A stretch of DNA of 64,000 bases from Ascidiaceihabitans donghaensis. Lineage in GTDB: Bacteria; Pseudomonadota; Alphaproteobacteria; Rhodobacterales; Rhodobacteraceae. Under the pieces are notes generated by a model, which had not been told where the DNA came from, ran no database searches, and saw nothing but the letters and a program-made list of their open reading frames with translations. How positions within the stretch are numbered: the first letter of the stretch is position 1; every line of letters starts with the position of its first letter. This document shows positions 30,002 to 36,009 of this stretch, one piece after another. Location: positions 2,946,729 through 3,010,728 of the forward strand of contig NZ_OMOR01000001.1 of NCBI RefSeq assembly GCF_900302465.1, in the 5' to 3' direction. The position numbers and the translations under genes were made by a program.

Positions 30002-30076
30002 GTCCCGTTCGTCTATCGGTTAGGACGTCAGGTTTTCAACCTGAAAAGAGGGGTTCGATTCCCCTACGGGATGCCA
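30002..30076 (+). tRNA. tRNA-Glu (anticodon TTC)
   Basis: A 75-base cloverleaf with encoded CCA. Acceptor GTCCCGT pairs with ACGGGAT (G1:U72), the anticodon loop is TTTTCAA with anticodon TTC, the T arm is GGGGTTCGATTCCCC, and the discriminator is G73. This matches tRNA-Glu. Confidence 0.97.
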
Positions 30077-30127: not shown

Positions 30128-31183
30128 CTAGGATGCGTCGCGCACATCTGGCGCGAAGTCTTCTTTCCTATTTTGCGGTACCAATTGGGTGACCGAATGA
30201 CGTAATTTGGGATTGAAAAACGTCTGCCGCGCCCGCCCTGCATCTTTTGAGGCATAAAGCGCGACGTCAGCATTGCTAACCAATTGATCTGCTGTCAGTT
30301 CGCAACCGGATTCGAAAAACGCAGTCCCGATACTCGCAGAAATCTGACAATGTTCACCCTGGTACAGTATGGGAACTTCAAGCTTGCTTATGATGCGCCC
30401 TCCGATACTGCTCAGCGACGCTTCGGACTGCGCTGAAGGCAGAAGGATGATAAATTCATCGCCGCCAACACGGGCAACAGTGTCAGTTTCACGCGTTTCA
30501 TCTACCATTATGCGAGAGACCACTTGTAGGACATGATCCCCTGCGGCGTGCCCTTTTGTGTCGTTCACAGCTTTGAAAAAATCCAGATCGATTTGCATCA
30601 AAGCGAACGATCGATCTTCTTCGATATATCGCTCTAGGAAATGATCCATTGCGCGACGGTTTTTCAGGCCTGTCAACGTGTCGGTAAACGCCTGTTCCTC
30701 TGCTGCGATTTTCGCACCTTGCAAGCGCAAGTTCATCTTGCGAGAGGCTTCCATCGCTGCGGATTTTGCTTCTACCAAGTAAAGCATTTCGATGGTCAAA
30801 TCCGTGTGCGCGAAATCACCACAGTTCAAGCCGAACTCACCAACGGCATCAACGATCGAAATCCCGAAAGACAGGTTCACAACGATCTGTCCCTCGCAAA
30901 GGCTGGGCACAAGCACGCCTTTCAGTTCCGTCATTGGCGGGTCGCGCATTTGCAAATGCAGCTTCATGCCGGAAACATTCAACAGATCTGCCACACTTGC
31001 CACGGCCCGTGGGCGTTTCAGAACAAAGACTTCCAAAAACCTTTGCCCGATTAACGATGGGCCATTCGGATGCAACTTTTGCGTTGTAGGGCCTGCATGA
31101 ACAATATGACCGGTACTGTTAAGCACCACATGCATCGGACACAACGTATCCAACATACTTAGGAAATTGTCTGAAGCTTTCAT
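30128..31183 (-). CDS. diguanylate cyclase with N-terminal HNOBA domain
   Basis: A 351-residue protein with three parts. Residues about 12-145 match the HNOBA (H-NOX-associated) domain: C-P-M-H-V-V-L-N at the start, a G-x-x-F-L-E-V-F-x-L-x-R-P segment, and a G-D-F-A-H-T-D-L-T end. A coiled coil follows (about 147-178), then a GGDEF domain with G-G-D-E-F and an R-E-T-D inhibitory site five residues before. It should make c-di-GMP. This is the layout of soluble guanylate cyclase with GGDEF in place of the cyclase. The start overlaps the stop of the H-NOX-like gene (ATGA), so the pair probably forms one sensor. Confidence 0.88.
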   Translation of the reverse strand: MKASDNFLSMLDTLCPMHVVLNSTGHIVHAGPTTQKLHPNGPSLIGQRFLEVFVLKRPRAVASVADLLNVSGMKLHLQMRDPPMTELKGVLVPSLCEGQIVVNLSFGISIVDAVGEFGLNCGDFAHTDLTIEMLYLVEAKSAAMEASRKMNLRLQGAKIAAEEQAFTDTLTGLKNRRAMDHFLERYIEEDRSFALMQIDLDFFKAVNDTKGHAAGDHVLQVVSRIMVDETRETDTVARVGGDEFIILLPSAQSEASLSSIGGRIISKLEVPILYQGEHCQISASIGTAFFESGCELTADQLVSNADVALYASKDAGRARQTFFNPKLRHSVTQLVPQNRKEDFAPDVRDAS

Positions 31184-31767
31184 TCTACGCGTGCGCCAAG
31201 TTCAAACTTGCGCCCTTCTGTAAATTCAGTGACCACTAAAGAAATTGATATTGTTTCAACACCTTGGCCTGATCCCATATGCTCAAACACTGCCAACACA
31301 CCGTAATCATCTGCCATGGTACGTAAAATACCCATCATGACATGCCCAAAGCCCACGATGGGGCATGCACAAACCAAACTGAATTGCGTAGAAGAATGAT
31401 CGCGCACTTCCAAAGATGGCAATTCCAGATCAGAGACAGCCAACCGCGCACGATCCGGCAAATCATCCAGAGAATTGAGAAACTCAACAAAGGTCACGCC
31501 CCCGAACCGTAACAACCGGCGTAACGCTTCTGTATTGGGATGTGACACCAGATATGTTCCGATGTCTTCCATCACATCAGAACGCGGTTTGTCCAAGACG
31601 AAGCACACACCGACGATCGCTTTTTCCGTCAACCCGTCTTCGTAGGTCAGCATTGCTTCGAAATCCGACACATCCAAAGCGGCCCAACGCACAGCGTCAT
31701 TCCACTTTTCAATGCCATAACTGTCCGTCACGAAACGCTGTATCGCGCGATTGATTAAACCGTGCAT
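31180..31767 (-). CDS. H-NOX-like (HNOB) protein lacking the heme ligand
   Basis: A 195-residue H-NOX family protein: M-H-G-L-I-N-R-A-I at the start, then the R-F-G-G-V-T-F-V-E-F-L-N-S-L-D helix. In active H-NOX the next motif is D-x-x-H, with the heme-binding His near 102; here it reads D-D-L-P (Pro104). The Y-x-S-x-R motif that holds the heme propionates is replaced by A-x-P-x-V (134-138). So heme binding in the usual way looks impossible. AGG lies before the ATG at 31767. It is translationally coupled to the HNOBA-GGDEF protein. Function: likely a regulatory subunit with a changed or lost ligand. Confidence 0.85.
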   Translation of the reverse strand: MHGLINRAIQRFVTDSYGIEKWNDAVRWAALDVSDFEAMLTYEDGLTEKAIVGVCFVLDKPRSDVMEDIGTYLVSHPNTEALRRLLRFGGVTFVEFLNSLDDLPDRARLAVSDLELPSLEVRDHSSTQFSLVCACPIVGFGHVMMGILRTMADDYGVLAVFEHMGSGQGVETISISLVVTEFTEGRKFELGARVE

Positions 31768-31804: not shown

Positions 31805-31831
31805 AAAACCTGTTAACATTCCCCAAACAGG
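31805..31831 (-). terminator. terminator downstream of mttB-family gene
   Basis: On the minus strand CCTGTT-N11-AACAGG is followed by TTTTG, 26 bases after the methyltransferase stop. It separates that gene from the H-NOX operon. Confidence 0.65.
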
Positions 31832-34602: not shown

Positions 34603-36009
34603 ATGCACGGGAAGATCCTGGTCATAGATCCGATTTCAACGAACCGGATCGTTCTGAAGGTGAAACTGTCCACCGCACACTATAGTGTTGTGCAGGCCGG
34701 ATCCATTTCGGATGCGTTGACAGCGATCAAAAGAACTGTACCCGATGTCATTCTTACAGCGCAGGAATTGCCTGATGGTGACGCCACATCCCTGATTGAG
34801 CGCGTGAGAAAATCGCGTCAGATGCGCGACGTCCCCATGATTGCGTTCCAGAACGAAGGCAGTAACGCTGCCCGTCTGGATTTGCTTGCTGCAGGTTTTG
34901 ACGATGTCATAGCCAAACCTTTTGATGATGTTTTGCTTTTGGCCCGTGTGCGCAGTTTGGTCCGTGTTTGCAATTCTGCAGCCGAATGGAAACTGCGTGA
35001 CGACACATCCCGCGCCCTTGGTCTGGCCGAAGCTCCAACAGCTTTCGAACATGCCGCGCGCGCCACAATCATGTCCAGCAACACCACAATCGCAAAGGTC
35101 TGGACACACCAATTGTCGTCTTTGGTAGGCATCACCTTGGACATGGCCAAACCCCAAAACGGACTGGGACCAACCTGCGATACTGCCAACGGCAAAGAAC
35201 CCGATGTCTTCATTCTGGACATGGGTCGTGAAAATGCACCTGAAATGTTGCGGATGCTGGCTGAGATCAGGTCCCATTCGCGCACGCGCCACAGCGGTGT
35301 TCTGGTCGTCCAATCAAACAAGGACGCCGATTTAGCCTCTCAAGCTTTGGATCTGGGCGCCAGTGACATCATGACGGAAGGTTTCGCCGCCCAAGAAATG
35401 GCGTTGCGTATCCAGACCCTGGTCAAACGCAAGCACATCGCCGACAGGCTGCGTGCGACCGTACGTACCGGTCTGGAAGCGGCCGTCTGTGATCCGCTAA
35501 CCGGACTGCACAACCGACGCTATGCCATGCCCCATCTGGCCCGGATTGCAGAAAACGCCCAAAGGTCAGGCAAACCTTTTGCCGTGATGGTTGCGGATAT
35601 GGATTACTTCAAACACATCAATGACGTTTACGGCCACGCAACGGGTGACGTTGTTCTGGTGGAAACTGCGCAACGGCTGCGAGAAAATCTGCGGGCCGTT
35701 GATTTGGTGGCACGGATTGGCGGAGAAGAATTTCTGGTGGTGATGCCTGGGGTTGGTTTGCGTAATGCACGCCTTGCGGCAACCCGTTTGTGCGAATTGA
35801 TAGGGTGTGCACCGTTCCAACAGCCCGATGGCTCGGGTCCTTTGACAGCGACCATCAGCATTGGCTTGGCCATCGGAGACGCGTCAACTTTCGAAAGGTA
35901 CGGCGCGGGCAACGTGGCGGCAGGGCTTTTGGATCAAGCCGACAAGGCCCTGTATCACGCAAAAGAACTGGGGCGAAACCAAGTCAGGTTAAGCCGTCCT
36001 GCCGCATAA
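34603..36009 (+). CDS. PleD-like response regulator diguanylate cyclase with degenerate receivers
   Basis: A 468-residue REC-REC-GGDEF protein, the layout of Caulobacter PleD. REC1 (1-120) keeps A-K-P-F near 107-110, but the phospho-acceptor at residue 53 is Ala, and the acidic pair is reduced to one Asp. REC2 (about 150-280) has F-I-L-D-M but lacks the acidic pair, and the switch Lys is Glu (T-E-G-F). The GGDEF domain (about 300-465) is intact with G-G-E-E-F and an R-A-V-D inhibitory site. So it should make c-di-GMP but not be controlled by phosphorylation of REC1. It is read alone. Confidence 0.9.
   Translation: MHGKILVIDPISTNRIVLKVKLSTAHYSVVQAGSISDALTAIKRTVPDVILTAQELPDGDATSLIERVRKSRQMRDVPMIAFQNEGSNAARLDLLAAGFDDVIAKPFDDVLLLARVRSLVRVCNSAAEWKLRDDTSRALGLAEAPTAFEHAARATIMSSNTTIAKVWTHQLSSLVGITLDMAKPQNGLGPTCDTANGKEPDVFILDMGRENAPEMLRMLAEIRSHSRTRHSGVLVVQSNKDADLASQALDLGASDIMTEGFAAQEMALRIQTLVKRKHIADRLRATVRTGLEAAVCDPLTGLHNRRYAMPHLARIAENAQRSGKPFAVMVADMDYFKHINDVYGHATGDVVLVETAQRLRENLRAVDLVARIGGEEFLVVMPGVGLRNARLAATRLCELIGCAPFQQPDGSGPLTATISIGLAIGDASTFERYGAGNVAAGLLDQADKALYHAKELGRNQVRLSRPAA

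Follow-up and report, generated by a model that had tools for sequence, protein, structure and literature searches.

The DNA analysed here is a window of 64,000 nucleotides from the marine bacterium Ascidiaceihabitans donghaensis. It carries an operon of two overlapping genes, one for an H-NOX-like protein (hnox) and one for a predicted diguanylate cyclase (dgc). The features of the operon, in coordinates of the window, are as follows.

31180..31767, minus strand: hnox-like gene, 195 aa, Pfam HNOB
30128..31183, minus strand: dgc gene, 351 aa, HNOBA and GGDEF
31180..31183, minus strand: ATGA overlap of the hnox stop and the dgc start
31456..31458, minus strand: hnox codon 104, Pro (CCG), at the site of the heme-ligating His in alignments to Nostoc H-NOX
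31357..31371, minus strand: hnox residues 133-137 (C-A-C-P-I), replacing Y-x-S-x-R in alignments to Nostoc H-NOX
30929..31159, minus strand: HNOBA (PAS-like) match, dgc residues 9-85, 28.9 bits, partial model
30230..30691, minus strand: GGDEF domain, dgc residues 165-318, Pfam match
30452..30466, minus strand: GGDEF active-site motif, dgc residues 240-244
30482..30493, minus strand: RxxD inhibitory-site motif, dgc residues 231-234
31812..31817, strand not assigned: GTTAAC, CtrA-like half-site, about 50 bases upstream of hnox

With 81.4 bits against the HNOB model (cut-off 25.5) the first protein falls in the H-NOX family. Its ATG start yields an M-H-G-L N-terminus that is common in the clade (a loose M-H-G-L-like pattern is found in 171 of 183 members), and the protein starts at the H-NOX core, without an N-terminal extension. 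The dgc product matches HNOBA with 28.9 bits (cut-off 23.4) over 76 of the 216 model positions and GGDEF with 140.8 bits; the best solved relative of its GGDEF domain, by sequence, is 5m3c. It carries both the GGDEF motif and RxxD and is predicted to resemble product-inhibited diguanylate cyclases in this respect; the output domain is a GGDEF domain and not the class III cyclase of soluble guanylate cyclase.

Genes for an MTTB-type methyltransferase and a HAD hydrolase lie 5' of hnox on the same strand, and recJ and tRNA-Glu (30002-30076) flank the operon on the other side. Across the clade MTTB recurs in 66 and HAD in 61 of the 81 flanks searched, with the GGDEF gene adjacent; a figure legend in an earlier survey names GGDEF, MTTB and HAD among the neighbours of all H-NOX groups, not split by group (Lee-Lopez and Yukl 2022, PMC8738867). 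About 3 kb from the operon, at 34603-36009 on the plus strand, lies a gene for another GGDEF protein, which has a receiver domain (PleD-like). Both the single HNOB match and the single HNOBA match of the host genome belong to the operon; no second HNOB match was found genome-wide, and for this reason a second host H-NOX able to sense NO was rejected.

In 106 of 179 loci, which are related and not independent, TTAAC or GTTAA occurs between 60 and 30 bases ahead of hnox, compared with a mean of 8.1 and a maximum of 14 in 50 shuffles and with 4 of 179 in a control stretch. We take TTAAC to be the CtrA half-site. In D. shibae and P. inhibens the expression of hnox and its dgc falls when the CtrA relay is removed (PMC12363192). 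We infer that CtrA controls the window operon as well, with GTTAAC as its site.

Loss of the heme ligand and the propionate motif

A histidine normally holds the heme in H-NOX proteins. In the window protein Pro104 lies opposite the heme ligand His105 of Nostoc H-NOX, whether the protein is aligned alone or within a 31-row profile, and in both alignments Cys133, Cys135 and Ile137 stand opposite Nostoc Tyr134, Ser136 and Arg138; neither of the marks of a heme-binding H-NOX, the proximal His and Y-x-S-x-R, is present. Nostoc Trp74 corresponds to Leu73, and Leu occupies this site in 176 of 181 distinct members of the clade (164 of the 169 His-less ones). G70, G146 and Pro117 are invariant in all 181. 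Pro117 is presumably the heme-bending Pro of the H-NOX fold, and the alignment suggests that G70 and G146 are the hinge glycines; the glycine hinge of H-NOX proteins sits in helices D and G (PMC8196705).

The motif Tyr (133) is replaced by Cys in 125 of the 181 members and Cys is thus not universal there; the window protein has a second Cys at 135 and none after that residue. The most widely kept His of the clade is His2 (163/181). It would sit near the heme propionates and not near the iron, judging from a simulation in which Tyr2 binds the carboxylates of propionate-mimicking drugs (PMC6225106). Among His-less members Pro104 is conserved above most sites (entropy rank 73 of 195), a hint that the Pro itself may have a role.

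These results bear out much of an initial annotation of the locus. The ATGA overlap, the HNOBA and GGDEF domains of the second gene and the replacement of the heme His by Pro104 were all found as it had described them, and the domain matches support its picture of a soluble guanylate cyclase-like layout that is split in two, with GGDEF in place of the cyclase. It had also read the propionate motif as A-x-P-x-V: the loss stands, while the letters, one residue out of register, become C133-x-C135-x-I137.

A predominantly His-less clade in the Rhodobacteraceae

In a sample of 394 Rhodobacteraceae genomes, close to one for each genus, 296 have an HNOB match, and the matches listed fall into a high-scoring and a low-scoring class. 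A profile built from the low-scoring class was run on 130 genera and matched in 93, of which 91 orthologs were read; the two left out are G004, of the canonical type, and G030, a 70-residue fragment at a contig end. Site 104 is Pro in 68 of the orthologs (67 by script, L235 by eye), His in 7 and another residue in 16 (Asn 3, Gln 3, Thr 2, Arg 2, Ala 2, Gly 2, Lys 1, Glu 1). At the motif, with one or two gaps per column, no ortholog has Tyr at 133, 16 have Ser at 135 and 3 have Arg at 137, and the full Y-x-S-x-R is missing from all 12 distinct His-bearing members as well. The lack of the heme ligand, in 84 of 91 census orthologs, is the usual state in the family.

The 91 orthologs represent an even sample, whereas the 181 distinct members combine the 80 nearest named relatives with the family samples and are uneven. 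Identical sequences were counted once, and the divergent L244 and L245 were left out of the trees together with L235 and L243, which are short after trimming. In L243 (genome G036) hnox is split between two frames, by an assembly error or a real break. Pro104 is also found in Cereibacter sphaeroides 2.4.1 (L200, in the census; genome G051, assigned by a plasmid stretch) and in a Ruegeria pomeroyi strain (L124, outside the census). A class-level search matched 11 of 387 genomes. Six belong to the Rhodobacteraceae; the five outside the family (L256-L260) score 33 to 121 bits and all have the proximal His, as read by eye.

Two canonical-type proteins were encountered in the same family. The first (L062:3036-3578) has Gln at the proximal site, as read by eye, and an intact Y-x-S-x-R; its genome (G086) also carries a Pro-type H-NOX, L199. 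The second (L003, genome G294) has His and motif intact and stands beside a gene that matches positions 3-308 of the dgc profile, an arrangement that is a possible ancestral form of the pair. Because a canonical H-NOX here adjoins a dgc-like gene within the family, the H-NOX/dgc pairing probably predates the loss of the heme ligand.

His-less H-NOX proteins have been described before. In 'Group 5' of Lee-Lopez and Yukl (2022, PMC8738867) fewer than 10% of the members have His, most have Pro and the hinge glycines are kept; the paper describes the group as large, including the P. denitrificans protein and being without a conserved Cys, and asks how its members sense anything. The counts of 68 Pro and 7 His among 91 orthologs, and Pro in the window protein, agree with these proportions, and no essential difference between Group 5 and the window protein was found, membership being judged by traits and not by network placement. 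In the P. denitrificans pair H-NOX/DgcA (Pden_3719/3720), too, the GGDEF gene overlaps hnox. That the H-NOX proteins of P. denitrificans and R. sphaeroides are without the axial His is stated in PMC5588039, which credits Iyer (2003) and Plate and Marletta (2013).

The census settles further points raised by the initial annotation. Pro does mark a conserved subclass (68 of 91), and the view that the losses go beyond random error gains from the non-His state of 84 orthologs and from strong purifying selection among close relatives; on the same two grounds, chance or a frame error behind Pro104 was rejected. Novelty had been placed in the missing ligand, and this claim is not supported, as the ligand's absence already stands in PMC8738867 and PMC5588039: the window locus adds one more member to a kind already known.

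Constant pairing and purifying selection

In all 181 distinct members dgc adjoins hnox on the same strand, with a median gap of 4 bases. The 4-base overlap of the window recurs in 57 of the 181 pairs with script-chosen start codons, and with the starts chosen L224 and L229 overlap by 76 and 122 bases. The GGDEF motif is intact in 181 of 181 partners and RxxD in 179. For hnox the median omega is 0.06 (range 0.016-0.234; 34 close pairs sharing sequences), no higher than the 0.0755 of dgc (26 pairs). For the window hnox itself, five of the eight relatives compared give a dS that is saturated or cannot be computed, and the other three give rough omega values of 0.05 to 0.17.

Residues that at least 93% of the clade shares but three canonical proteins lack include E67, D68, R83, R106, R149, D154 and Y155; R186, F188 and L190, in a C-terminal tail that the three are without, are conserved to the same degree. 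The clade-specific residues and the tail may form contacts with the partner.

Coupled changes at sites 104 and 135

Where the lost motif had its Ser, at residue 135, Trp or His stands in 10 of 12 His104 members versus 12 of 169 others, a grouping that was picked after looking at the data. In a scan that allowed equal freedom of grouping over 170 usable columns (24 were skipped; those with a Fisher p above 0.02 were scored as zero, with no fit), 135 was the residue most coupled to His104 (LR 30.8, next 20.2). By a plain majority rule there is no coupling between the two sites (LR 2.5), and sign tests on independent pairs are not significant. That His104 and residue 135 change together suggests that the His-bearing members may keep a pocket function.

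The fewest changes at site 104 number 11 on the hnox tree, weakly supported when taken alone, and 8 on the joint hnox and dgc tree, both trees being quick searches; 28 losses are needed if His is never regained. The log-likelihood of a two-state model is -34.5 with regain versus -41.5 with loss only from a His root, and that of a four-state model -72.3 versus -78.2 without gain, so that some regain of His104 is preferred by the models. L117, with His, is nested in a well supported and otherwise His-less group.

A link between the retention of His and denitrification was rejected. In the 80 of 95 genomes covered by the screen, nirK was over the cut-off in 15 and a nirS-type gene reached at least 370 bits, a threshold set by eye, in 17; nirK or nirS was present in 6 of 11 His genomes versus 26 of 69 others (Fisher p 0.33, hand count).

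Relation to characterised systems

The H-NOX/Dgc1 pair of D. shibae (L071/L183) belongs to the same orthologous clade as the window pair, with an HNOBA-GGDEF partner, a 4-base overlap and MTTB and HAD upstream on the same strand, about 1.9 kb separating hnox from MTTB. Its genome (G035) has a plasmid stretch identical to the DFL 12 record NC_009958 and one HNOB match. Unlike the window protein, the D. shibae H-NOX keeps the proximal His and the motif Arg (C-x-W-x-R), and it is reported to bind NO and to inhibit Dgc1 (Bedrunka 2018, cited in PMC7232146 and PMC8846402). Some papers, such as PMC7232146 on R. capsulatus, regard the gene as an NO sensor because of its homology to that of D. shibae.

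In P. denitrificans the hnoX mutant is partly biofilm-deficient and a dgcAB mutant overproduces biofilm; on these phenotypes the authors base their proposal that DgcA is inhibited by H-NOX (PMC5588039). Inhibition of the cyclase is a proposal from phenotypes because c-di-GMP is below detection in this organism (PMC12582929).

The pseudo-H-NOX of the soluble guanylate cyclase (sGC) alpha subunit is, like the window protein, without the heme residues and works with a PAS-like domain and a cyclase. The window protein differs in being a separate protein, in serving a GGDEF and not a class III cyclase, and in having no pocket-filling N-terminal extension. In sGC alpha such an extension blocks the pocket, and since a plug of this type is absent from the window protein its pocket may be open. 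Precedent for signalling without heme also comes from V. cholerae, whose H-NOX can signal by Cys oxidation (PMC7108781); that protein keeps His and uses a zinc-Cys site, and the window protein has neither.

Function of an H-NOX protein without its heme ligand

Judged from sequence, the window protein is a member of the H-NOX fold family that has lost the His and the propionate motif and is kept, under purifying selection and in constant pairing, with a partner whose GGDEF is intact; the locus is the host's copy of an H-NOX/Dgc operon that is widespread in the Rhodobacteraceae. The account that we think probable is that it is a pseudo-H-NOX, which has no Fe-His bond and still regulates its diguanylate cyclase, probably by restraining it. 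The H-NOX protein would be a dedicated regulatory subunit that holds the cyclase, most likely restraining it through the HNOBA/PAS and helix region, and would move about the retained glycine hinge. Its trigger may be redox, another ligand, or no more than expression and complex formation. Being without the Fe-His bond, the protein would not sense NO in the classical way. In favour of this account we count Pro104 and the lost motif, the invariant G70, G146 and Pro117, the census counts at site 104 and the motif, the unbroken pairing, the GGDEF and RxxD motifs of the partners, the low omega, the single HNOB match of the host and the opposite biofilm phenotypes in P. denitrificans, whose ortholog is His-less (PMC5588039). 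Against it count the conservation of Pro104, the roughness of the window protein's own omega, a pocket that may be open for want of the sGC alpha plug, the suggestion of Kumar and Spiro that NO acts via the P. denitrificans H-NOX (PMC5588039) and the undetectable c-di-GMP of that organism (PMC12582929).

The main alternative, tentative and in our view rather improbable, gives the pocket another input, either a small molecule other than heme or oxidants that act via Cys133, and with it the cyclase a new signal. The absence of an sGC alpha-type plug fits such a reading, as do the mostly hydrophobic character of the gas-tunnel-lining positions (as listed for Nostoc in PMC7356049), the frequent Cys in place of the motif Tyr, joined in the window by that at 135, and the Cys-based signalling of the V. 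cholerae protein (PMC7108781). However, Cys133 is not universal and Group 5 is said to be without a conserved Cys (PMC8738867), the zinc-Cys site of V. cholerae has no counterpart in a protein that has its last Cys at 135, and no ligand is known.

We consider it unlikely that the protein still senses NO through heme, held by another ligand or by none. The D. shibae ortholog is reported to bind NO and inhibit Dgc1 despite its C-x-W-x-R (PMC7232146, PMC8846402), but it keeps His. His2 is common and NO stimulates biofilm in P. denitrificans (PMC5588039), yet NirS-derived NO did so in hnoX mutants too (PMC5588039). Members without His are also without the motif Tyr, rarely have the Arg and mostly have Leu for Trp74; among the residues that they have at site 104 are Pro, Ala and Gly, none of them able to ligate iron; and nirK or nirS shows no association with keeping His. 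Decay of a gene without function, to which the lost cofactor residues and the two-frame gene of G036 might point, was rejected as negligibly probable, being contradicted by an hnox omega no higher than that of dgc, the retention of both genes at all 181 loci and the nearly fixed clade-specific residues.

Implications for the Rhodobacteraceae

The additions made here to what was known are the constant pairing in 181 of 181 members, the invariant GGDEF and hinge glycines, the omega of 0.06, the loss of the motif even where His is present and the coupling of sites 104 and 135. In a more speculative reading, which we regard as improbable as a whole, one operon type would serve two inputs. The rare lineages that combine His104 with Trp or His at 135 would use heme and NO, and most members some other ligand in the pocket; coupled changes at both sites would turn the heme ligand off, and perhaps on again, while the output stays fixed. 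NO sensing in D. shibae would then be the exception and not the rule. Because few orthologs share the His of the D. shibae protein, the NO sensing reported for it should not be carried over to the other members, and with 84 of 91 orthologs lacking the ligand, any control by NO over c-di-GMP, motility and gene transfer in the family is to be tested and not assumed. The natural pairs of His and non-His proteins, together with the coupled site 135, offer a way to ask what an H-NOX protein does without heme, the question that was left standing in PMC8738867.
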